Source of the DNA: Marchantia polymorpha subsp. ruderalis
Lineage: Eukaryota > Streptophyta > Marchantiopsida > Marchantiales > Marchantiaceae
Length of the DNA stretch: 64,000 nt
NCBI GenBank assembly: GCA_037833965.1
Contig: AP031354.1
Location: 9,526,001-9,590,000 of the forward strand
Reading direction: 5' to 3'
Shown here one piece after another: positions 9,246 to 64,000 of this stretch. The notes under the pieces are model-generated. The model had not been told where the DNA came from. It was given only the letters and a program-made list of their open reading frames with translations, and did no database searches. Each line of letters opens with the position of its first letter. The first letter of the stretch is position 1. The position numbers were made by a program, and so were the translations under genes.

Positions 9246-10796
9246 GATCTTTTTAAAACTTCAACTCCCAAATTTCATATTTAGCAACAATTAAAGAAAA
9301 AAATGTGTACCTTGAATTTTGCACAGAGTACTTTCAACTCTTCCAAAACCGTTTGAAGAAGATTGAGTATCAAATTGTCTTGAGAAGCCATCATGTGAAT
9401 GTTTTCAAAAAACTCGAGACTCCAATATGTCTCAACTTCGTTCTCCAAATTGTGTTCAGCCTTCAATTTTGCATGCTTGTGCTTCCTGCCCAGCTCCAAG
9501 CTCCCACAAAGTTTTAGGTCGAAAACACTCTCCACTCCGAAGTAAAGCCCCTACAAGATTCGGCTCTCTCCTCTCAAAAAGCTCAAACCTCCAAGACGTC
9601 TCAACTTTGTGCTCCGAATTGCGTTCAGTCTGAGATTTTGCAGGCTTGTGTGCCCTGCCCAACTTCAACTTTTCACAAAGTTTCAGGTCCAGTGCACACC
9701 TAATTTCTAAGAAATAGCTTCCCTAAAAATTGACTCTCCTGCTCTTACATCTTGAAACTTGAAACTCAAAATTAGACGCACTCTAACTTAAGAACTCTGT
9801 TTGATCTGAAAATTGAAAAGCTACAGCGCCCTGCCTTACCTCACAATGACACAAAATTTCAGTCCTCGTTCACAAAGCCCAAAGCTCCGGCCCCTGCAAG
9901 ATTTGGCCATCCCCTCTCAAAAAGCTCAAACCTCCATGAGGTCTCAACTTTGTGCCTCCAATTGCGTTCGGTTTGAGATTTTGCACGCTTGTGCGCCCTG
10001 TTCAATTTCAACTTCTCACAAAGTTTCAGGTTGAATGCACATCCAAGCTTGAAGAAGTATCTCCCGGAAAAATTGACTCTCTTGACCTCAAATCTTGAAA
10101 CTTGAAACTCAAAACTCAAAATTGAACGCACTCTATTTTTAAAACTTGGTTCAATTTAAAAATTGACAAGCTACAGCGCTTTGACTAACCTCACAATGTC
10201 GCAAAATTTCAGGCACGGTTCACACTTCAGGCCAAAGTTACGGTCCCTTCAAGATTTGGCCATCCACTATCAAAAAACTCAAATCTCCAAGACATTTCAA
10301 CTTCGTGCTTTGAATTGCGTTTGATATGAGATTTTGCATGCTCGTGCGCCATGTTGAATTTCAACTTCCCACAAAGTTTCAAGTCCAGTGCACATCCAAC
10401 CTCAAAGGAAGATCTCACGTAAAAATTGACTCTCTTGCGCTTAAATCTTAAAATTCAAAGCTCGAAACTCAAAATTGGACGCACTCTGTCTTTGATACTC
10501 CGTTCAATATGAAAATTGACAAGCTACAGCGCCTTGCATATTCTCACAATGGCACTAAATTTTAGGCCTGGTTCACATTCCAGCCCGGAGTTACGGCCCT
10601 TGCAAGATTTGGCCATACCATTTCAAAAAGCTCAAACCTCCAAGACGTCTCACTTTGTGCTCCAAATTTGTTTGGTCTAAGATTTTGCAAGCTCATGCGC
10701 TCTATCCAACTGTAACCATCTTTAGTTAGTTAGAACTAAAGTAGAGGTTACTCTAAATATTGATGTAGATACTTTAGTGTGCACTAGTCATAGCAA

Positions 10797-10966
10797 CCAC
10801 GTCAGCGATCCGCACACTTGGTAGGTACAGAGTGGATGTGTTAGTTGACAGTGCCACGTCAGCAATCCGTGTGCTTGTAGGTAAGGATTGAGTGTGTTAG
10901 TTAGTGTGTTAGTTGGGTGCGCCACGTCAGCGATCCGTGTGCTTGTTAGGGTTATCCGCCACGTCA
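10797..10966 (+). promoter_or_regulatory. Four CCACGTCA (bZIP-type) sites in the LTR
   Basis: CCACGTCA occurs at 10797-10804, 10854-10861, 10922-10929 and 10959-10966, each within a longer repeat GCCACGTCAGC(G/A)ATCCGTG. The reverse complement TGACGTGG is a known plant bZIP binding sequence (hybrid of G-box and C-box). Their place upstream of the TATA box suggests an LTR enhancer. Function is inferred. Confidence 0.6.
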
Positions 10967-11034
10967 GCCATCCACTATGAGTGGGTTGGATGGTGGGGAT
11001 TAGATCTTATCACCTTGTACTTCTTGGTGAGAGC

Positions 11035-11042
11035 TATATAAG
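11035..11042 (+). promoter_or_regulatory. TATA box of the solo LTR
   Basis: TATATAAG lies about 90 bp before the LTR 3' end and 70 bp after the last CCACGTCA repeat, as expected for an LTR core promoter read on the plus strand. Confidence 0.6.
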
Positions 11043-13028
11043 GGAGAGGAGAACCATTGTTGGGATCTCTCATCTTCAGAGTTTACGTTTCTATCTTCGA
11101 GTGAGCTTCTCTCTAAACCCTAGTGTTACACCAATTTCAACTTCCGAGATAGTTCCACATCCAGTGCACATCCAAGCTCAAAAAAACAACTCCCGTAAAA
11201 ATCGACTCTCTTGCTTTCAAATTTTGAAACTCGAAGCTCGAAACTCAAAAGTGGACGCACTCTATCTATGGAACTCCGTTCTATTTGAAAATTGACAAGC
11301 TATAGCGTACAACATAATCTCACAATGGCAGTTAATTTCAAGCACCGTTTACACTCCAGTCCGAAGTTTCGGCTCTTGCAAGATCCAGCCATCCCCTCAA
11401 ACTTCCAAGACGTATCAACTTTGTGCTCCAGATTGCGTTCGATTTGAGATTTTGCAGGATTGCGATATTTGTCCAACTTCAACTTTACATAAAGTTTCAA
11501 GTTTAGTGCAGACCCAAGCTCAAAGAAACAGCTCCTGTTAAAATTGACTCTCTTGCCCTCAAATCTTGAAACTCAAAGCTCAAAACTCAAAATTGGACGC
11601 ACTCTGATTCTAGAACTCCGTTCGATTTGAAAATTAACACGCTAGAGCGTCATGCTTAATCTTACAATGGTACAAAATTTCAGGCTTGGTTCAAACTTGA
11701 TCCCAAATTTACGGCACTTGCAATTTTTTGCCATACCTTCTCAAAAGGCTCAAACCTCAAAGACGTCTCAACTTTGTGCTTCAAATTACGTTCGGTCTTA
11801 GATTTTGCACGCTCGTTTGCCCAGTTTAACTTCAACTTTCCACAAAGTTTCAGGTCTAGTGCAGATCCAAGCTTGAAGAAACAGCCCCCAAAAAATTGAT
11901 TCTCTTGATTTCAAATCTTGAAACTCGAATCTTAAAATTGAACGTACTTTGTCTTTGGAATTCCGTTCAATCTGAAAATTGACAAGCTATAGCGCTCTAG
12001 GTAATCTTACAATGGCACAAAATTTCAGACTCGTTCACACTCCAACCCGAAGTTACGACCCTTACAAGATTCAGCCATCCCCTCTCAAAAAGCTCAAATC
12101 TCCAAAACGTCTCAACTTTGTGATCCGGATTGCATTCAATTTGAGAGATTTTGCAAGCTCGCGCGCCCTGTCTAACTTCATACTTCTCGCAAAGTTTCAG
12201 GTCCAATGCACACCCAAGCTTAAAGAAACAACTTCAATAAAAATTGATTTTCTTGCTCTCAAATCTTGAAACTCAAAGCTCAAAACTCAAAATTGGACTC
12301 ACTATGTTTTTGGAACTCTGTTCTATTTGAGAATTGACATGCTATAGCGCCTTGCTTAAACTCACAGTGGCCCAAAATTTCAGAACCGGTTCACACTCCA
12401 GCCCAGAGTTACAACTCTTGCAAGATCGAGCCATCCTCTCTCAAAAAGCTCAAACCTTCAATATGTCTCAACTTTGTGCTCCAAATTGCATTCGGTTTGA
12501 GATTTTGCACGCTAAGAAAATTGACAGGCTATAGCGGCCTGCCTAACCTTGCAATGCCACAAAATTTCAGGTCCGGTTCACACTCCATCCCGAAGTCACG
12601 GCCTTGCAAGATTCGGCTCTCCCCTCTCAAAAAGCTCAAACCTCAAAGACATCTCAATTTTGTGCTCCGAATTGCGTTAGGTTTGAGATTTTGCACGCTC
12701 GTGCGCCTTGTCCAACTTCAACTTTCCACAAAGTTTCAAGTCTAGTGAACACCCAACCTTAAAGATTCAGCTCCCGTAAAAATCAACTCTCTTGTTTTCA
12801 AATTTTGAAACTCGAAGTTCAAAACTCAAAATTGGACGCACTCTGTCATTGAACTCCGTTAAATCTGAAAATTGACAGGTCTGCCTAACCTCACAATGGG
12901 CGAAATATCAAGCCCGGTTCACGCTCCAGTCTGAAATTACGACCTCTACAAGATTTGGCTCTACATTCTCAAAAAACTCAAACCTCCAAGACATCTCAAT
13001 TTTGTGGTCCAAATTGCGTTCCGTCTAT

Positions 13029-14369: not shown

Positions 14370-14590
14370 ATAACACGTATACACATGACAGTTGTCGTGC
14401 GAATGTATATTGTCATATAATTACATTGTTGACATGCTATACTCACAAACACATAATTTGTGGTATATTTATGTATGTGTAAATACTCGTTCCTATATAT
14501 GTGTGTTTGTGAGTATAACATGTCAGCGATGTAGGTTGTATGACGATACATATGCGCACAACATTGTGTGTTAAAATTTTTCTTCACTAC
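14370..14590. repeat. Long inverted repeat, MITE-like hairpin
   Basis: The arm at about 14390-14455 is matched, reversed and complemented, by 14496-14565. Key matched blocks are GACATG(C/T)TATACTCACAAAC and GTCATA, with outer similarity GTGCG...(A/C)ACAC extending toward 14370 and 14590. Loop length is about 40 bp. The folded unit is roughly 200 bp. It fits a small non-autonomous DNA transposon or a hairpin transcript. No clear target-site duplication was found. Confidence 0.75.
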
Positions 14591-51440: not shown

Positions 51441-54154
51441 ATTATAGCTTTTCATTTAGTGAAACCCTGAAGGCGATGTCAAGCTTTTGCCAGTTTGACT
51501 TGGACTGGAACGAATATGTCGAAGATGAGGCCACTGGGTTCTTAGAGCAATGCGAGATTTAGATACTTGCACAAAGAAAGGCTTTTAGTTGGTAGCCACA
51601 ACTGAGGACCATGCAGATTTGAGCTGATGAGGATACTTGGTCTGAGCACAAGTTGATGGTCCTACCACGAATTGTTACTGGCAAGCCAATCGGCCACACC
51701 GAAGTGGAGATGTTTACGTAGAAGTAAAGTGGCTGATCTATAAGTGATTGAATATGCAAAGTTTCTAGATCTCGCCATCTACTGTCCTCCCGATTCCACC
51801 CCGGCTCGAGAAGGGTTACTACTGTTGACCCGAAAGCAGTGCAGGGTGCAAGAATCTACAGACCTGTACGGCAAAGAGGCAAGGGATTGTAGCTAGACTC
51901 CCTTATGCAATGTTCCCGCTTCCTTTTCTTGTTAGTGCGGGCAAAAGTGTTGAGGGACTAGATTTGAGTACAGTGGCTGTCTGTGGTTGATGTCCAGGAT
52001 CTGGAAGGGGCCTGGGCGTTGAAAACCTCTAAGCTGGTCTCTATTTGACGAAAGCCAGGATGTCGAGTGAAGAGGCCAGGAGCTGTCAAGAAATACTTGC
52101 CCTAACTTGTACTTTGAGAAGCGCACCCACTGGTGCTTACAGAATCTGGGGCCAGAGAGATCTGTTTAAAGTCCGGGACATGCCATGTCGCTAGGTAGAC
52201 CGACCTCCTTTCCTAATCTTCAGGAGCGGTATACTACCGATCACTTCTACCGAATTTCAGTAGAATCTACGGAGCCAGATTACCCGCCATTTCGGATATT
52301 CCTAGTACATTCACTCGGGGATTCACTAATTCCACAAGTCATCAATCAGGGTGAGCTTCGACCAAAACTGCCGTTGTGTTTCTTACGTTGCAGACCCCCT
52401 CGAAAGTCTTCGGCTGCTCGTGCTTTCAGAGGATGGTTAAAAGAGTTGGGACACTCTTTTTCTCCCTTTTGCGCTTTTGAGTCGAAATACCTTGGTACTT
52501 GATTGATGCTTGTTGTACTTTGATCGATGAAGTAATCTATCCACTATCCTTCCGGTGAACGGCAGAATTACTTGCACTTTATGCTCCAGTGAGCTAGAGA
52601 TTAGCGTTCTTGTAAAGCAGTCGATTAAATACACTTTTGAATAGAAGACTTAGAATTGAGTGAGACTTGCGACTGTCACATCATGTGTTATGACTGCAAT
52701 TCTGCTTCAACGATCTCCATTATGCAGATTAATCATTACTACTTGTTGTGGTTTATGGGGACATGTTTAGAACGTTGAATGAATCGGCTTGCTTGATTTT
52801 CGACTGCACATGATGTTAGCTGAGGTGCATGTGCAATAAGAAAACTTGCATAGCGTCCACTACTACTATGTGGTAGGAAGGTAAGTAAAGTGTTTCGCAC
52901 TTTTCATCGATTATAAAAATTCTCACTATTCTTGGTTCATTTTGTTGTCTGCTTGCCAGCTGTGGCTTGTGGCTAATTTGTTTGTATCTTTCCTGCATAA
53001 AGTAATGCGTTTGATTGTAATTTATCATGTTCTAATCAACATAATAATTTTCTTCCAAGTTTTTCTAAACCAGAGGGACCACATTGAGAGGGCAAGTCCT
53101 GTGATTGTATATGGGTTTACTAAGCTGCTCGTACTTGATCAAGAGATTTGATGCCAATGAAAATAGTATTTACATGATCGTGTGCATGTGTCTCTGGTCT
53201 TTCTTTGTAACCAGGATGCAAGGTGTTTCAGACTCTGGAATTTTATTATTTTCCATGACTAGTAGATGCCAACAGTGTCGTGTCAAGTATGAGTAGATGA
53301 TCACATATCTGCTCATATCAAATCCAATGGAAAGGAAACCACGTGAGTAAAGTTGTCACTTCCCTTGCATTTAATGTATGTGTATTTTGGAGTTTGCAAT
53401 CTGATTAACGTGAAAAGATAAAAAGATTGTTTGAGACCTAATTAAGAAATTCCTTAGGCAGCTCAGCAGCATGTATCAATCGTAATCTTGTTACAGAGGG
53501 TCGACTTTGTCACAGTCGTTAAATATTTGCCTCGATTACTGTAAGGTTTTACGACGTCTTGTTTAGGTGTAAAAAACCTATAAATTGACACTTTTGAGAG
53601 TAAACTGTGTTTTCCTATATACCAGGAGGTGATTTTACTTGGTGTACAGTCAATGTACCACTTGTTGTCAACTTGTGCCTGGGGAATTCTCGTGAACGTA
53701 CAAATTCTCTTTCATGCCCATACATGTGTATCTTCAATACTATATCACATTCTCTGGAACGTGAATTCTCGCCCATCCATACCGTACTGCCCGTACATCA
53801 GATGGACATCGTAAAACTGGTGACGATGTGGAATAATAGTGGACAACTGACGACTTACAACTGAGGAAATAACAATTCAGTGGAATGTACAACGTCCGGT
53901 AAGATACATAATATACATGAAATGGACACCATGACACCAGGACACCATGAAATGTACAAGTTACATTACGGAACCTGATCTGTTACATTCTCGGCTACCT
54001 CTTATATCCTACTATGGTAACCAGATTGTGGACCTACAACATAGTTGGTACAATCTTTGGGTCGAAGGGAAAATGGACACTGCCAAGTCCTGTGATTTGT
54101 GGACAGCTATTTTGACCCGACTTTCATTTCTCGTCCAGGCCACTGGCGAGCAAA
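51441..54154. other. 3' flank of the MYB-CC gene; no gene recognised
   Basis: The first part should be 3' untranslated region. Frames at 52185-52502 and elsewhere have no recognisable domain. A short direct repeat (AGGACACCATGAAATG-like) lies near 53915-53955. Nothing else was supported. Confidence 0.4.
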
Positions 54155-55901
54155 TCATATGTCTGTATCATCACTTTGTAACCAATGGACGTATCTCTGA
54201 AGGGAATTTCTGACCAGAGCCTTGGCATTTGTTTCGATTTCGAGGTCGAAGAATGCTCCGTAAAGCCGATCATACTCCAGCGTTTCCATGATTTTGGAGA
54301 TTCTCTGAGAGTGAGATCCAGACAGTGGGATGTAATTCGGAAACGAACGCATGACGCTGACCGCCTTCCTGTCCATAGTAACCTGCCAGAGCAAGCAAGG
54401 CGAGTGATAAAGAGCCCACAACGTCCTCTCTGAGAATTCCTTCCTAGCAAATGGGATCCTTCACGAACTACCAGACTGGTGGAGTACCAGAATGAAGACC
54501 CGTCACCGTGAGCCCAATTTGCTATCTTTTATGGTGCACAATCGAGCTGACGAGTGTTGAAATTGCCAGTCTAAGTGAGAATTAAGCGAACTAACTACAG
54601 GCTCAAAGGATGCCCACAATATGCTCTCATCTCTACAAACTAACATGCTTCGTTCGTGGTGTACCTGGAGAATGTCCCCGGAGATTACTGCACCTTTCCC
54701 ATCGGCGCCAGATGGCCAGTGCAAGATAGAGCCACCGGGGAAATGACCACCGAGGCGGACGAGCTGTATGCCATCCCACAAGGACAGAGTCTCGCCACTC
54801 CAGTAGCTCACATTCTCGTGGTCATATCCAGCCCACTTCCTGTCTCTGAAGAGCAGTCACGAAAAGGGTCAGACAGAGAGAGATGTAGCGAGGTCATCAA
54901 GACAAAACTCGCCACCATTCATCATTGAGGAGAAAGCTGATGGACGCGGAGGTGCCTACTTTTCATGCATGTACACTGGAATGTTACCGAAAGCTGCACT
55001 CCATTGTGCATTAGCACTGTAGAAATGCGGGTGCGAGATAGCTATAGCTCGCAGGCCACCTAAACCCTTGATAATGTCGATGGTAGCATCGTCCAAAAAC
55101 GTCACACAGTCGCAAAGCAGATTTCCATCTGCGCACACAGAACACCACATCCTGATCTGATCATCGAACTGCAGTCAATTACTTGTTCAGAGGAAGCTGT
55201 CTTCGCCTGAAGGCTACTTGTGAAGAAAACGGGGTCAATTTGACAGCGAAGGAAGGAAGGAAGGTGATCGTACTGGGAGTCTGAAGAAGAAACGCGCGTT
55301 GGCCTATGCCGAATTTGGGGACGGTGGCGATTCCATACAGATTCTGCTCATGCTTTTGGTACATATTTCGGTATCCTCGTTGCTTCAGTTGCTCTTGTTT
55401 GGTCCATCTCTGTCCTCCCCTGCTCGTCAGCCCAGCGTCCACAAATCAGAATCCCCTGCCTGATTCGGATTCCAAAAACCCTCAGACATGCCATGAACAT
55501 GTCTTCCACTTATGGAAAATCACACCTCCGTCTCATCTTCATAATCAAACATGAATCTGCTGTAAAATTCGTCGGAGGCAGAACTGATGGTGGATTGCAA
55601 ACAAAAGGGCAGAAAACCAGACGCGGCAAGGGATCCAGCAAATTGCAGATTGCAAATTGCTTTCCCCCGTGACGAGAACAACTCGAAAAGGGCACACCGT
55701 CCTCTTCGCAGTGAGTGAACGAGAGCACGACCGAATGAATGAACGAATGAATGAGAAGAGTCAGAGCACGAACTTGGGCACGAATTGGCGTTCGTCGACG
55801 CAGATGTGACACTCGGCTGGTGGATCGGAAGACGGTGCGAACTGAACCCCACAAGTTTCGCAGATCCAACATTCCTTATCGAGCCTCGCGACCTCCTCCA
55901 T
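54155..55901 (-). CDS. Metallo-beta-lactamase-fold protein with N-terminal zinc ribbon
   Basis: Five exons: 55774-55901, 55274-55419, 54960-55128, 54665-54845 and 54155-54382. They total 852 nt (283 aa), all phases agreeing. The start is the ATG at 55901. Residues 11-34 hold a Cys cluster (CETC at 14-17, CHIC at 31-34), a likely zinc ribbon. A bridge motif (GGQRWTKQEQL) and FGIGQRAFLLQTPNGNLLCDC follow. The MBL core has LDD, AIAISHPHFYS (His124, His126), LGGHFPGGSILHW (His182) and SGDILQ (Asp205). It ends with RSFPNYIPLS and DRLYGAFFD. The HPHFYS motif departs from the classical HxHxDH, as in a hydrolase-like MBL group seen in bacteria and plants, so the metal site may be mononuclear or altered. 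Substrate is unknown. A paralogue fragment lies at 63135-63782. Confidence 0.88.
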
Positions 55902-56680: not shown

Positions 56681-56689
56681 TAAACCCAT

Positions 56690-59274
56690 TGCCCTCATTT
56701 TTTGTTCAAGAGCAAGAACCAACATGTTGGACATTTGGAGATAGTCATATGAGGAAGTATTGTACTCAAGAGTGCAGTGGAAGAGGTTCACATGCTAGAC
56801 CTTAGCCGACATTGGTTGTGTGTGATCATTGTTGTCGGGCGGATCATCCTCCAGAGCGATGTTTTGACCTTCATCCAGAGTTGAGATTTGGAGATAGAGG
56901 TCGTGGCAAAGGAGCTCCACAAGATCGAGGTGGTAGAGATGATGGTGCAGGTGCCACTGGACGGCCCATAGTGGGTGCTAAACATACCATAGAGACCGCT
57001 ATAACTGCTCGGATTAAACAATTGGAGTAGAGGCTTGCTGGGAAGGCTAGTTCTGAAGCAAGAGCTTTCACTTCTCATGATGGAGAAGATTTCTACTCTT
57101 TGGCAAGTGTAGCCCAAGTTGAGGCATCGGTTGCATTGACAAGAGTCGTTGCTCGTGCTTCAAATCCACGCGGTATGATCGTGAAGTTGGACCCTCAGAG
57201 GGGTGAGGGTGGGAGGCAAGCTAGGCTCATCCAATCATTCTTGTTGTCATAGGTGGGCATGACTTCATCCATGAACCCTACACCACCTAGTAATCATGTA
57301 GTGAGGATTGAGACATCTACATCACATGTTGCGAGCACAGAGACATCATCTAGTGCAATGATGCGGATGGCTACTTTGGTGATGAGATCTCCACTGTTTT
57401 CAATCACGAAGCTGATTGCCTCAGGATTGATGTGGCTTCTGTAATTCTCGTGTAGCAACCATGTTGTGTGAACGTGAAAATGTCACTGCCACAAGTGTCG
57501 AGATATGTGAGGGTATTGTTGAGAAGCAACCCTCAACGCCTACACTCAGAAATGAGGCAACTTGGCAGACGACATCAGCAAGGATGTACTTATTACCAGC
57601 CCGGCCAGCCATTGATTGTGATTGGATTGTCCCTAGTGTGTGTATGTTGGACAACCGGAGTGGTTTGTTTCGTTTGGTGAGTTCTACATAATATGTGTAT
57701 GTCCCAGCCAGAGTTTTGCTTGACTCTAGTGCACAACCCTTGATGTTGGCCAAGGTAACTTGCATTAGTTTGGAAGTTTGGAGATCCGAGTTGGAGCCTT
57801 GTACTTTCAAGATCAAGACATCATTTGGTAGTGCCAGTGATAGATCATACTTCATGGCCAAGGAGAGCGTATAAGTGCAGTTGAGTCATGATGACGTACA
57901 TGATAGCTCATAGCTTGTAGTTCGCGAGGTGGTTACATCAACAAAATTGTATGATGTGCTTGTTGGAGTAGTAATCTTGTATTCGATGGATTTTCAGATG
58001 GACTATTGGACAGAGATAACAACCTATTGCCCTGGTTGGCAGTTAGGAGATGGACGTATGAACGAGCTACTTGTGAGATTCATTCTAGAGCTAGACCGCT
58101 TGGATCTTCTCCTACAGTGTAGACATCTGTTGCCGGGTTTAGCGAAGTGCTTGTGTGGCTCAATAACTTGCTAGAGTGCAACATGATGGTCAACTATACT
58201 CCAGTCTATGAGGAAATGGAATGGATGCACCGGCAGTGTTCTCTTCCTTAGACGTTCCACTCTGGCGTTCTTGTCATGAGTTGCAGCTAGAAGCTGATAG
58301 GTTGGTGAAGAAGGCTTGGAGTGAAGCTTTTGAACCTAAGGAGATAGAGACATCTCAAGATATTCAGCTTTTTTGTAGTACTAGTGCGCTATCGCCATTG
58401 GTCACTGCATCCATTGCATGGGAGTACTTCCCAGAGGGCGTATGTATGTTGGATCTTTTTGGTGGAATAAACACAAGTTTGGCTGCAGTGTTGCAGTTAG
58501 GTATTCTCGTACGCATATAGTTATATGTGGAGAAGTATGAGACTACACTCAGAGTCTCCACACAATTACATGTTACATGTTACACAGTTGATGCAGCGTT
58601 ATACTTCCATATTGCTGCGATCTGTTGTCCGAACATACCAGAAGACGTTGCCTTTAGATATTTCATTGTTGGAGGCGCCAGACCTTGATCGGGTTGGCCA
58701 CATTGATCTGGTGATTGCAGGATGGCCATGCTAGGGTCACACACGTGCTGGTCATGGAGAAGGGTTGCAAGATCCTATATCTCGTATGTTTTGGGTGATG
58801 GGTGATGTTACGTATGTTAAGTTATCTCCATGTGTATCAAGCAAGTCCTCCGCCGTACATTTTAAAGAACATGCCATTGTTAGGTGACATTTGGACCTAA
58901 TTAATAGCGAGTGTACATGAGTTGCGGTCGTGAATTGGACCGGCTGTTTTGCTTGATGCAGCAAGAGTTGGAATCTGGCACATCGATCACGTTTGTGGTG
59001 GACAAACTTGTTGCCGAGGTAGGTCTTGCGACGTGCATATGACTTTGTGCAAAGCGACCATACTCTTACAATATATAGCATTTCAGATGTTGGGCAACGT
59101 TCACAATTGTTGAGGGTTGCTGATCGATCATCTATGCCGGTGGTGAACCGTGTGGAACAGCCTTGGATGATATTCTCCACGTTTGTGAGTTTCTTTACAT
59201 CACATGCTTTTAGGGATAGTGGTCTCGGGCTTGTATGGAATACTCGTGTGCAGCAATTGGTGGAAAGTTGAGAG
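56690..59274 (+). mobile_element. Degenerate retroelement with gag, protease-like and DNA methyltransferase parts
   Basis: The order on the plus strand is as follows. (1) 56725-56890: two nucleocapsid zinc-knuckle-like motifs, CWTFGDSHMRKYC (second Cys changed to Phe) and CDHCCRADHPPERC. (2) Linker rich in Ser/Thr (57200-57450). (3) 57690-58115: an aspartic-protease-like segment with ARVLLDSSAQPLML (DSG-type site changed to DSS), then YDVLVGVVILYSMDF, MDYWTE and GWQLGDGRM. (4) 58380-59271: a C5 DNA methyltransferase domain, listed separately. Many stops and frame changes show it is dead. No reverse transcriptase, integrase or LTR was seen in the interval. Gag and protease suggest an LTR element of Ty3/gypsy type, by inference. 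Confidence 0.7.
58221..59274 (+). pseudogene. C5 cytosine DNA methyltransferase domain, inactivated
   Basis: Methyltransferase motifs appear in the correct order. Motif I is MLDLFGGINTSLAAVLQLGI (58449 on), the S-adenosylmethionine site. The motif II-like YVEKYE starts at 58524, right after a stop at 58518. Motif IV is HIDLVIAGWPC at 58702-58731, followed by TAG where Gln is expected, then GHTRAGHGEG. The motif VI equivalent YILKNMPLLGD (58856 on) has Lys-Asn-Met in place of Glu-Asn-Val. The motif VIII-like RSRLWWTNL starts at 58984. A conserved tail (VADRSSMPVVNRV ... GLVWNTRVQQLVES) ends at 59271. Three reading frames are used, so at least two frameshifts occurred. It is not one of the normal plant genes MET1, CMT or DRM by domain layout. 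It stands alone next to retroelement gag and protease remnants. Catalysis is excluded in this copy. Confidence 0.75.
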
Positions 59275-59610
59275 AGTTTTCACGAATGCCAAATGTTTGT
59301 TCTTGGAAAATTTTGTATAGAGTAAATTACTTATTTGTGTCTTTCAAGTTAGACTTTGAAACTTTGTACGAGTGTGTATTGGAAGAAAACCTACATGCGA
59401 GATAGAAAATTTCATTGAGAGATTACGTCTAAAGACAAAGTTGTGTTATTTTGAAGTTCTGGGGTACAAAATCAAGATAAGAGAGCAAAAGTTTCGGACT
59501 TCTTTATTCATAGTTTTTGCCAAGTTATAGTCTAGGAGAGGTCTTTTGAATGGTTTGCATCTTATGGAAAAAGGAGTGAACAAGAAGGTTGGAAGGTTAG
59601 GTTATCCAAA

Positions 59611-61710
59611 GTGCTTCAAGGCTTGGATGTTATAGTGTTTTTAGATTTCAATACAAGAAAATTGAAGGTGAGGTTTGAAGAAATAGTAGTAAGTCAATCC
59701 CCAAGAGTCAAACGTGAGACTTGCTTCTATCGTGGAGAGGAGAGACATAAGGCTGTCAATTGTTTCCCGCGAAACAAGGATAAAAGATTGAAGACGAAGT
59801 GGAAATTGGAAGACTTGAAATTCCACTTGGGTCCATTATCATCACATGAATCCCAAATCGCAAACTACTGCAATAATTGTAGAGTGATTGTACTACCGGC
59901 GAGACATGAATGCAATGGAGTGAAGTCACTTCTTGAATCACTTGTGAAAGGTCTTGATGTCATATATAGTGAGGAGACGGAGAAGTTAATCTCGATTGAT
60001 TCAAGCTCTAACTAAAGATGGAAATCATTTCTCGGATGATGGAAAAGATGATGATGAGGGTAAGATTCATTGTGTGTTTAGGGGAGAAGAGAGCTATATT
60101 GGATGAGTGAATTATTTTTGTGTTTACTTTGATAAGAATTCAAGAATGAAGTTAATGATATTTGTGTTGTATTAAAAAGTTCCATATAAATTTCCAAGAG
60201 AACCAAAAAAGTTCAAAATGAGGAAACTTGTGGTGTTTTATGGGAGCAAGAATGAGGATGTAGAAGCTTTTGTTAGGGACTTCAAGAGTGCTTGCATAGA
60301 AAACAATGAGAGTAAGAATGACAAGTGAACTATGTTTTTGCCAATTTTTTTGGTGTATTCTACTGTCAAGTGGTTTAAATAATACAAGAGAGAGCATTTG
60401 GAGGATGACATTTGGAAAACGTTGACGGAAAACTTGATCTAAAACTTACTTCCAAATAAAAGTTATGAAAAGCTGATCTGTGAGGTCAACTTTTTGAAAC
60501 AAGGAGAGAAAAAGAAGGTGATGATCTATGTGGAGAGAACTGAGAAGTTGGAGTCTAGATTCAACGTGGTGTTTAGGAAGAATGGAGATGAAACGGATGC
60601 TACAATGATGAGGTAACTGGAAATGCTCATGAAGAACTTTATTGGAGGTTTTAGACCCGAAATTTGAAGTAAGTTGAGATATGAAAAGTATTCTTTTAAA
60701 ACTTAAGTCATTCAAATTGCTGTTAAAATGTAGGAAAGCTTAAAAGATGATGATTTTAGCTTGGTGGCTAGAGAAGTAATTCCACCGGTTGTAGGAATAT
60801 CCATTTTAAACTTGCAAAACTTTCATTTCAAAACTTGCTAGTTTAATCCTAATGTAAATTTGCAAAATGAGTTCAAATCTATCACGTAGCCTCTAGCGAA
60901 CCTCAAAGATCAATGTAATAAAGTTTTGGATGAAGAGGAATCAGAATGTAGGAGTAGGCTTTAGGGGGTATGGAAATTATAGTCCAAGAGAAAATTCATC
61001 TCCATGGAACTTTGTAGTTTCTTGTTTTACTTGTGGCGATACTCATTTTCAGCGAAATTGTCCTAACTCCCGACAACATGATGGAGTTCAGCACAACAAC
61101 AATGTATCGGCCACACAAACAACCAAAGATAAAGTATTAGCATCCAATGATATATTCTCTCATCAATGCACTTTTGAAAAAGTAGAGAGCTCAAAGTGGA
61201 TCCTTGCACATGAGAACATTTTCATTTTCAATTTTCATAGAGAACATGTCAAGTCGAAGTACATGGTCAAGTAGGGTGAATGACTTTTCAAGTAGTATCA
61301 AGGTTGAAATTGAGCATGAATGATTTTTCCATTTCATCTTTCTCAAGCTAAGTATGGCGTGGTGGAGTATGTAAGAAGTCATAAGGCCAATATAACAATT
61401 GGCCAACTCATTGTTTTAAATCCAGCCATACCAAAAGAGTTGAAAGTAAATCAAGTCACATATGACTAATGTGGGAGTTGGTGTTATGGATGCTGTTGCC
61501 TCGGAGTTATGTACACATGCTTCAAAGATCAAAGTGAGTATCGATGAACATGATATCTTTGACGTGCTAGTAGATGGTGGTTCTGCGGTAAATGCAATGT
61601 CTGAAAGATTGTTGTCAAAGTTGGGATGCGATGCCTCTTTGACCGTCTTCTTGACAGCGAGTGTACTTATCATCTTCAGAGGAGCCGCTCGAGTGCGGAG
61701 AGCACAATAA
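59611..61710 (+). mobile_element. Second gag-protease relic, Ty3/gypsy-like
   Basis: Plus-strand fragments with many in-frame stops. A first frame (59611-60015) has a broken zinc-knuckle-like CFYRGEERHKAVNC. A gag-like region (about 60180-60720) includes VFYGSKNEDVEAFVRDF and NFLKQGEKKKVMIYVERTEKL. CFTCGDTHFQRNC at about 61020-61060 is a CCHC knuckle one residue short. VSIDEHDIFDVLVDGGSAVN at 61535-61595 is a retroviral-type aspartic-protease site (DGGS). Its gag differs from the relic at 56.7 kb, so it is another family. No reverse transcriptase follows; the copy is truncated near 61.7 kb. Confidence 0.7.
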
Positions 61711-63134: not shown

Positions 63135-63782
63135 TCAGCTATCGATAATCTTGCGCTTTCCTTTAGCCACAATTTTACGAGTGGCCTCCAGTGACTCTTT
63201 AGACCAGGGCTCTTCCAGGTCCTTCTCACGGCAAGACCACATAAGGTACTTCCTAAGTGAGGACATGACAATTTGCTTTCCCATTGCCTTAATATCATCT
63301 CCGGGCAAGCTCCCATAAACACGTTCATAATCTAGGTCCAGCCGTTCCATGATCTGGAACATTCGCAGAACAGTTCCAGGATTGGCCGGAATAAAGTTTC
63401 TATAGGATTTCATGACACTAACAGACATGCGGTCAGCTCCAACCTGCAACGAGACCAGCAAGTATTGCAACCGACGGGAACATTAATACTCTGCTCGATC
63501 TGACTTTTTGAAACTTGACCACAATCAGCCGAGGATGGTAAGTTAAGTTGAGACATGGATTTGTTCTGGACCTACCTTCAGGGTATTGCTTGACAGGATG
63601 AAACCACCATACCCTTTCCTGTGTAGGATGCAGCTTCCGTCGTAATGACCGCCCAGATTGATCACGCTTATGTCATCCCATAATTCATAAGTTTCGCCCC
63701 TCCAAAATATTATGTGCGAGTCTATGTAGCCTAAGGGCAAGGTCATATATGCGCTGTCGCTATAATTCCAAACAGGTAAAAA
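63135..63782 (-). CDS. Metallo-beta-lactamase-fold protein paralogue, 5' part missing
   Basis: Two exons are visible: 63576-63782 (possibly starting later) and 63135-63443. The last exon encodes VGADRMSVSVMKSYRNFIP ... ERVYGSLPGDD, aligning with the end of the protein at 54155-55901. It has a longer basic C-terminal tail ending at the stop at 63135. The other exon has IIFWRGETYELWDDISVINL, LGGHYDGSCILHRKG and FILSSNTLK, parallel to YWSGETLSLWD, LGGHFPGG and ISGDILQ of the neighbour. Intron position and phase between the two exons are identical in both genes, so they share ancestry. The Asp of the GD motif is Asn here, which may weaken metal binding. Upstream exons lie beyond 64000 or are lost. 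Confidence 0.75.
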
Positions 63783-64000
63783 CTGCACATATTAGGATAA
63801 GATGCATCGAATGCTACAGGACGCTAGAACCTGAAATTGAACCGCTAAAACATTTATAAAGCCGGGAAACTTTTGAAAAGAATATATTTTCCAGTGTGAA
63901 TAAATCATTGGGAAGTAAAGGCAAACTTCAATGTGAAGAAGGCCCCCATGATAAATCACAACTCGTACAGGATTCTGGATGATTCTGAATCTGTCATCCA
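63783..64000 (-). other. Probable intron of the MBL paralogue, to window edge
   Basis: AT-rich, no coding similarity to the expected upstream MBL exon. An acceptor-like TGTGCAG is at 63783-63789 (minus strand). The gene either continues past the window or is truncated. Confidence 0.35.

Follow-up and report, generated by a model that had tools for sequence, protein, structure and literature searches.

A decayed Dnmt3-type methyltransferase in Marchantia polymorpha and a related retroelement family with split repeats

Does a land-plant retroelement carry its own DNA cytosine methyltransferase? This question was raised by a 64,000-nucleotide stretch of the Marchantia polymorpha subsp. ruderalis genome (GenBank assembly GCA_037833965.1, contig AP031354.1, positions 9,526,001 to 9,590,000, forward strand), referred to here as the window, in which a prediction made from sequence alone had placed a dead methyltransferase domain at 58221..59274, downstream of gag-like and protease-like remnants on the same strand. 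Dinoflagellates and charophytes are the reported hosts of retroelements that carry a cytosine methyltransferase, and Gypsy elements with Dnmt3 and DIRS-type repeats are described from Klebsormidium nitens, in the main text of de Mendoza 2018 (PMC5890265), to which a 2025 paper refers back in its available text (PMC12344493). We found that the methyltransferase of the window does belong to a land-plant retroelement, whose unbroken relatives encode gag, protease and methyltransferase, then a UAG codon, and then reverse transcriptase (RT), RNaseH, integrase and a PHD finger. The best explanation, which we consider likely, is that the relic comes from the interior of a retroelement whose family also has young copies, and has since decayed; to this we add a proposed role for the enzyme, replication through circles and capture of host mRNA.

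The relic and its unbroken relatives

With an unbroken first open reading frame (ORF1, L009) as the tblastn query, we found five collinear blocks on the + strand of the window: residues 365-620 at 56683-57429, 627-838 at 57449-58084, 839-884 at 58084-58221 and, for the methyltransferase, 892-1004 at 58233-58574 and 1003-1230 at 58576-59265. The methyltransferase blocks fall within 12 bases of the predicted coordinates. Each of three copies with an unbroken ORF1 aligned to the relic over approximately 2.6 kb (73% identity, E = 0.0, blastn), which argues that the match is not due to chance. The features are as follows.

56683..59265, + strand: ORF1 relic with gag zinc knuckles, protease and methyltransferase; residues 365-1230 of 1358, truncated at both ends (tblastn and blastn against copies with unbroken ORF1)
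56821..56862, + strand: second gag zinc knuckle, CDHCCRADHPPERC, aligned to CDHCHRPGHPRERC of copy c6a
57449..58084, + strand: protease region, named from its active-site motif at 57716 (LLDSSAQ, compared with LLDSGAQ); tblastn block 627-838, 66.5% identity
58233..59265, + strand: Dnmt3-type cytosine methyltransferase relic, from tblastn blocks 892-1004 and 1003-1230; in unbroken copies this domain matches PF00145 and DNMT3 structures
58446, 58720, 58859 and 58970, + strand: relic methyltransferase motifs I, IV (with a stop), VI (as KNM) and VIII (frameshifted), respectively
14383..14455, - strand: stand-alone piece of the 119-bp B repeat of the element (82% over 74 nt by blastn, E = 1.8e-12)

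The zinc knuckle and the LLDSSAQ site bear out the predicted gag-like and protease-like remnants, and the methyltransferase motifs that had been listed were recovered on the tblastn alignment, with the region of motif VIII frameshifted. Relic motif I reads MLDLFGGINTSL, motif IV GWPC followed by a stop, and motif VI ILKNMPLLGD. The copy is dead, as had been proposed: a stop follows the catalytic Pro-Cys and KNM replaces ENV, so that the relic itself departs from the Dnmt3-type motifs, and seven of the nine indels that separate it from copy c6a shift the frame. Between these two, 1903 of 2571 aligned bases are identical (74%; Kimura two-parameter distance 0.326). Pfam searches found no methylase family in three frames of the relic methyltransferase region (E up to 1), and neither a methylase nor a clear retroelement family in ten frames of the relic region. 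The relic is thus recognizable only by comparison with better preserved copies in the genome; Pfam alone misses it. With c6a as a stand-in for the ancestor, C-to-T and G-to-A changes affected 43/146 and 39/153 sites at CHG and 26/124 and 33/124 at CG, and were rarer at CHH (48/307 and 75/522), while reverse changes affected 62/672 T and 65/519 A. The excess at CHG and CG is as expected of a copy that was methylated for a long time.

We found that 123 scored places in the 241-Mb, 9-contig genome match the C5-methylase family PF00145 (290 candidates), and that 24 of them lie in open frames of at least 1350 amino acids without a stop. The recommended search thus recovered copies with the enzyme frame intact, and the suggestion that the family "once" carried the enzyme needs to be amended, as the whole first frame remains open at these 24 places. 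For 13 copies with a long first frame we retrieved sequence, covering the full neighbourhood of three and both ends of the other ten. Purifying selection was evident from pooled dN/dS ratios of 0.31 for gag, 0.23 for the protease part and 0.28 for the methyltransferase (78 pairs, 13 copies), though the copies were picked for their long ORF1s, a choice that biases both dN/dS and age and tells against us.

ORF1 (1358 amino acids) contains, in one frame, gag, two zinc knuckles, protease and a Dnmt3-type methyltransferase. Gag is identified by a sub-threshold Pfam match (15.6 bits compared with a cut-off of 24.1) together with the zinc knuckles, the protease by its DSGA motif, there being no Pfam protease match in ORF1, and the methyltransferase of unbroken copies by PF00145 (E 5.5e-10). 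Pfam places RT, RNaseH, integrase (H2C2, rve) and a PHD finger (E 9.3e-11) in that order in ORF2; with gag and protease ahead of it, the RT-RNaseH-H2C2-rve order, also present in the related protein P0176, is that of Ty3/gypsy elements. ORF1 ends with TAG CAA CCA in 13 of 13 copies, and in the three copies that were read through (c8, c6a and c6b) ORF2 continues in the same frame past the UAG, being unbroken in c8, while in-frame stops interrupt it once in c6a and twice in c6b. UAG-CAR-YYA is the readthrough context of the tobacco mosaic virus type. The UAG-CAA-CCA after the methyltransferase therefore places the enzyme on the Gag side of a presumably leaky stop, where it would be made at the level of Gag. 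As a separate observation, the PHD finger at the integrase end (L010:1122-1301, -) is nearest to the fingers of CHD4, the MLL family, PHF12, DPF and PHF21A, a group in which some PHD fingers read unmodified H3 tails.

We next consider the kind of methyltransferase. DNMT3A/B ranked first in the PDB by both single-sequence and profile searches, followed by DRM, DNMT2 and bacterial enzymes (profile E of 1.9e-24 for DNMT3A, 9.9e-13 for 4onj, labelled 'DNA methyltransferase', 9.3e-11 for DRM2, 5e-8 for DNMT2 and 1.3e-6 for M.HhaI). An AlphaFold2 model of one existing unbroken domain (pLDDT 86.9, pTM 0.88) retrieved DNMT3 entries in all 50 Foldseek rows listed. The catalytic Cys, motif VI Glu and motif VIII Arg columns are invariant in a 12-row alignment, and unbroken copies contain PC in motif IV, ENV in VI and RxR in VIII in unrearranged order, as Dnmt3-type enzymes do. 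As judged from its sequence, the element enzyme is a Dnmt3-type cytosine methyltransferase, of presumed activity.

Relatives were collected by three protein searches (best 120 of 171, best 120 of 301 and 36 of 36 matches listed). Among the matches listed, those with species labels came from Marchantia polymorpha (up to 96%), Riccia sorocarpa, Calypogeia fissa and Sphagnum species, many were metagenome proteins, and none was named for Klebsormidium. One, P0035, bears the label of a bacterial metagenome-assembled genome and groups in the tree with rows lacking a species label. A scan of viral contigs with the methyltransferase alignment yielded 10 loci at 27-42% identity. Full-length relatives differ in layout, with methyltransferase-RT-RNaseH-integrase-PHD in P0176 and RT-RNaseH-methyltransferase-integrase-PHD in P0177 and P0184, indicating that the methyltransferase has moved within the polyprotein.

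A relic of this kind could instead be a pseudogene of a host methyltransferase (MET1, CMT, DRM or DNMT3) beside unrelated gag and protease remnants. The genome does contain such genes: host genes among three inspected PF00145 places were a DNMT3 (C6:12459429) and two DRM-like genes (C2:342518 and C3:19066770), all at loci separate from element copies. In a midpoint-rooted tree of 61 rows picked from 190 sequences, the element enzyme and 57 homologues split from host DNMT3 and both DRMs with support of 99/99, though the host rows are long branches that drew a program warning; the Marchantia, Calypogeia and Sphagnum rows and five without a species label formed one clade (100/100). Of the phylogeny that had been called for, the DNMT3 and DRM part thus places the host genes outside the element clade, and MET1 and CMT were not included, which leaves the pseudogene explanation that much room. 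Given that the relic is collinear over 2.6 kb with unbroken gag-protease-methyltransferase frames, we give this explanation practically no credence. The relatives are neither stand-alone host genes nor bacterial, the finding that was to overturn the original prediction, but are bounded by element ends and 4-bp target duplications; a host-gene or bacterial origin was rejected on the separate host loci and on a tree holding host DNMT3 and both DRMs.

Split repeats and a proposed cycle with self-priming

We found no conventional long terminal repeat (LTR) pair in the copies read, and in this they depart from Ty3/gypsy elements. Of the open gag-protease-methyltransferase-RT frame that had been envisaged between LTRs, the frame was found, with the UAG inside it, and split direct repeats take the place of the LTRs. 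The 5' end is A1, a 293-bp repeat (A), and the 3' end consists of B1 (a 119-bp repeat, B), GC, A2 and B2, with A2 and B2 overlapping by one base. Eleven of the 13 copies carry the B-GC-A junction; the other two, c6b and k9, are A1...B1 only. A perfect 4-bp duplication lies directly outside TGTC...GACA in all 12 copies with both ends in the fetched DNA (AGGC, GGTT, TCTT, TGAT, ATGT, GATG, TGTC, CACA, AAGA, AAAG, ATCT and AGTG), and TG...CA ends with a duplication of this length are as in Ty3/gypsy elements (4-6 bp). Eight copies show 0 to 3 differences between A1 and A2, and k7 shows 6 (A2 is rearranged in k3, and c6b, k9 and k2 give no comparison); these insertions are therefore recent.

Nested insertion, recombination or assembly error might also scramble ordinary LTRs into split repeats, and the ends of 2 of the 13 copies are indeed aberrant: k3 carries an additional B-A unit (B-A-B-A-B), and the 5' side of k2 contains inverted A and B pieces, with no A1 found. 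Nevertheless, the outer ends are identical and are flanked by perfect, differing 4-bp duplications at 12 sites on several chromosomes, and the exact B-GC-A junction occurs at 101 places genome-wide. The elements of K. nitens, moreover, are described with DIRS-type repeats in the main text of PMC5890265. We therefore regard scrambling as very improbable. Exact counts for A1 plus the primer site described below and for A-B were 113 and 56, and reversed-pattern controls gave 0 for each of the three patterns. Separately, the 5' side of k2 (L032 6330-9455, +) holds an inverted frame of 1042 amino acids, the length of ORF2, and is probably part of a head-to-head element pair.

DIRS, Ngaro and PAT elements have an A1-ORFs-B1-A2-B2 layout. 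The Marchantia element shares this layout and differs from them in having an rve integrase in place of a tyrosine recombinase and in producing target duplications, where DIRS and Ngaro elements produce none. It works partly like a DIRS element but is not filed as one. The missing LTRs are probably how the family escaped LTR-based annotation.

Directly after A1, all 12 copies with A1 carry the 11-nt sequence CTCGAAGAACT, beyond which they diverge. Its exact complement is found at A position 113, in the 3' arm of a hairpin, and a purine-rich tract lies just before B1. The Tf1 element primes itself via an 11-nt site complementary to its own RNA. We hypothesize that the element RNA would start inside A, at position 113, and self-prime on the 11-nt site in a Tf1-like manner, and that reverse transcription would yield B-GC-A as terminal repeats. 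The cDNA would be circularized, giving the A-B junction, with A2-B2 representing the junction of a two-repeat circle, and integrase would act on the internal B-GC-A site to generate circularly permuted ends that start with A and end with B. Under this circle model, the copies with only A1...B1 (c6b and k9) would derive from one-repeat circles. The methyltransferase may enter the particle and methylate the new cDNA de novo, and the PHD finger may tether integrase to histone H3. Marking of the element's copies or management of host silencing, as had been suggested, would be candidate roles of the enzyme.

The main rival on the ends is a DIRS/Ngaro-like route without a two-repeat circle, in which a linear cDNA regains its lost ends by using the internal B1-A2 copy as template and integrase acts on the linear molecule. 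The shared A1-ORFs-B1-A2-B2 layout is what this route would give, and the GC spacer of B1-GC-A2 could preserve dinucleotides trimmed by integrase. On the other side, a self-primer site after A1 and a purine-rich tract before B1 are what ordinary priming would use if B-GC-A were the terminal repeat, and the perfect duplications around A1...B1-only copies are in keeping with a one-repeat circle, although neither amounts to proof. We consider linear templating a serious candidate and, on balance, somewhat unlikely.

Captured host mRNA

The 12 copies with A1 carry 0.9-3.0 kb of variable sequence that follows the primer site and ends at the gag leader. Most of the 66 segment pairs have no detectable shared sequence; k3 and k9 share 914 bp, k1, k7 and c6a share approximately 600 bp at the 5' side, k6 and k8 share some, and a few pairs share 58-98 bp. 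Copies k3b and k6 are only 0.42% apart in ORF1, and their segments have no BLAST link at all. We searched 7 of the 12 segments against the genome (k6, c6b, k1b, k8b, k3b, c8 and k7; c6b and c8 only over the reach of one locus). The k6 segment draws on at least four loci, located on two chromosomes: C8:6649565, C8:10533111, a BRR2/ASCC3-like gene (C8:424060-426298, six blocks) and a SAWADEE gene (C2:16619631). The c6b segment matches a DIS3L2-like gene (C6:26133212, four blocks) and the k1b segment a PEX1-like AAA gene (C7:8670463, five blocks); the names PEX1 and BRR2/ASCC3 are in part what we take these captured pieces to be. Protein matches were also obtained for genes of the k6 segment and for the DIS3L2-like gene of c6b. 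Among 28 frames of captured segments, Pfam matches over the curated cut-off were Sec63 (k6), AAA (k1b) and SAWADEE (k6), and sub-threshold matches were Macoilin, BBS2_GAE and two AAA-lid models.

Several of the captured pieces lack introns. Across the BRR2-, DIS3L2- and PEX1-like genes, 10 of 11 gaps are bounded by CT...AC in the element sense, that is, GT-AG on the other strand, and one further k6 gene has an antisense splice-like gap, for a total of 11 missing introns in four antisense genes. The chance of a splice-like pair in a gap is roughly 5-15%, by arithmetic with offsets allowed and with no shuffled control. The eleventh gap (PEX1-like, 153 bp) lacks splice-like borders and shows an overlap of 9 bases, such as a template jump leaves. 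Two sense-oriented genes, the SAWADEE gene of k6 (90-95% identity) and C4:1365419 of k3b, each lack one GT-AG intron. Other gaps were considered and set aside: neither a 277-bp gap among kin of k8b nor the c8 gap at C5:19210 is readable as an intron, and a k1b gap at C6:15810 is of low complexity.

Antisense introns could not have been spliced from element RNA, and the source of these pieces is therefore spliced host mRNA. We asked whether the segments could instead derive from genomic DNA or pre-mRNA, for example by 5' transduction, with sense introns spliced later from element RNA. The two sense-oriented genes with one intron each removed would suit such an origin, as would the 277-bp gap without splice signals. 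It accounts poorly for the 11 introns missing from four antisense genes and for a k6 segment that joins at least four loci on two chromosomes, and we judge it unlikely; as the main route, 5' transduction of flanking DNA was rejected, since the spliced antisense pieces speak against it. In our preferred account, capture from spliced mRNA, plus-strand DNA copying an mRNA gives antisense pieces and minus-strand switching gives sense pieces, and both seem to occur. After the second strand transfer, plus-strand DNA would repeatedly leave its template, copy one or more host mRNAs and rejoin in the gag leader.

Two further observations concern the segments. The k6 segment is found at 100% in two adjoining halves approximately 18 kb apart (C4:2528054-2529830 and C4:2547647-2548829), as if a nested insertion had split another copy. 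Kin of the k8b segment at C2:30886806-30889773 and C2:23975488-23976395 differ by an extra 277-278 bp without splice signals.

A bolder joint reading is of a Dnmt3-bearing land-plant family whose circles are inserted by a DDE integrase at a permuted site and whose 11-nt primer site, regenerated from the RNA itself, frees the plus strand to wander over host mRNAs, producing recurrent antisense patchworks of spliced host mRNAs. We offer this joint reading tentatively, with doubt slightly outweighing belief. Several points weigh against the best explanation given at the outset. Few copies may be complete, ORF2 being unbroken in one of the three read. Three of the seven segments searched (k8b, c8 and k7) gave no clean intron test, and four (k6, k8b, c8 and k7) recur almost in full elsewhere in the genome at 98-100% identity, indicating that segments are also inherited and that capture is recurrent and not one per jump. 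Segments could also be exchanged when copies recombine. Plus-strand switching by itself cannot account for the two sense-oriented genes among the six that lack introns, unless these introns left the element RNA later. Readthrough, self-priming, circles and PHD binding are all inferred from sequence. Finally, the K. nitens enzyme gave no methylation in yeast, a result called inconclusive in the main text of its report (de Mendoza 2018, PMC5890265).

Known systems, neighbouring features and significance

The closest known system is KnitGypsy-Dnmt3 of K. nitens, which has in common with the Marchantia element a Gypsy-type polyprotein, an intronless Dnmt3-type enzyme, DIRS-type repeats and purifying selection. 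The element shows the Gypsy domains, Dnmt3 and DIRS-type repeats by which KnitGypsy-Dnmt3 is defined, a likeness by published description. The enzyme of KnitGypsy-Dnmt3 is described in the Pol frame, whereas that of Marchantia ends the gag-protease frame before a conserved UAG. Its main-text description contains no PHD finger, and a self-primer site, target duplications or captured mRNAs were not noted in its available text (PMC5890265). SymbioDIRS-Dnmt3 of Symbiodinium likewise has a Dnmt3-type enzyme in a retroelement polyprotein, and the Symbiodinium enzyme had de novo CG activity in yeast; as described in the same main text, it is a DIRS element with a tyrosine recombinase, in contrast to the DDE integrase and 4-bp target duplications found here (PMC5890265).

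At the position of the PHD finger, chromoviruses carry a chromodomain. The self-priming chromoviruses Tf1/Sushi and Tcn1 likewise have a primer site complementary to their own sequence, as given in the main text of Neumann et al. 2019 (PMC6317226), but the Marchantia element has no LTR pair. Gene-capturing LTR elements (Bs1 and those of rice and sorghum) likewise carry pieces of host genes; compared with the Bs1 type as portrayed in the available text of a 2026 review (PMC13317346), capture in Marchantia has a fixed position after the primer site, is mostly antisense among the genes tested, and yields multi-gene patchworks that differ between most of the 12 copies compared. The main text of de Mendoza 2018 (PMC5890265) does not mention Marchantia, liverwort, PHD or split, that of Neumann 2019 (PMC6317226) methyltransferase, PHD or Marchantia, and the available text of the review (PMC13317346) Marchantia or bryophyte. 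We found no land-plant report of the family in the literature searched, with subscription papers and preprints outside our coverage. As far as that coverage reaches, what is new relative to known methyltransferase retroelements is the land-plant host, the placement before a presumably leaky stop, the PHD finger, the permuted ends and the mRNA capture.

Other features of the window were also noted. Further retroelement-like remnants at 59536-61710 (+), sub-threshold in Pfam and without a match to the Dnmt3 element, include a CCHC-like motif (60897-61274) and an aspartic-protease-like frame (61450-61710). Translations of 54124-54856 (-) and 63135-63791 (-) are alike by eye, possibly representing related host genes that flank the relic. 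An unrelated dispersed repeat at 10711-11130 (420 bp) is 80% identical to a repeat flanking the copy at C6:30.1 Mb.

The captured spliced mRNAs reveal an RNA-based route of exon shuffling at a fixed place in the element. If our joint reading is true, the element would generate chimeric fragments of genes, from which antisense or small RNAs directed at host genes might arise, and would do so under a mark of its own making. With the family present in liverworts and Sphagnum, and with 24 unbroken enzyme-bearing frames in Marchantia, a genus with laboratory use, the question of why a transposon carries an enzyme of host silencing becomes testable.

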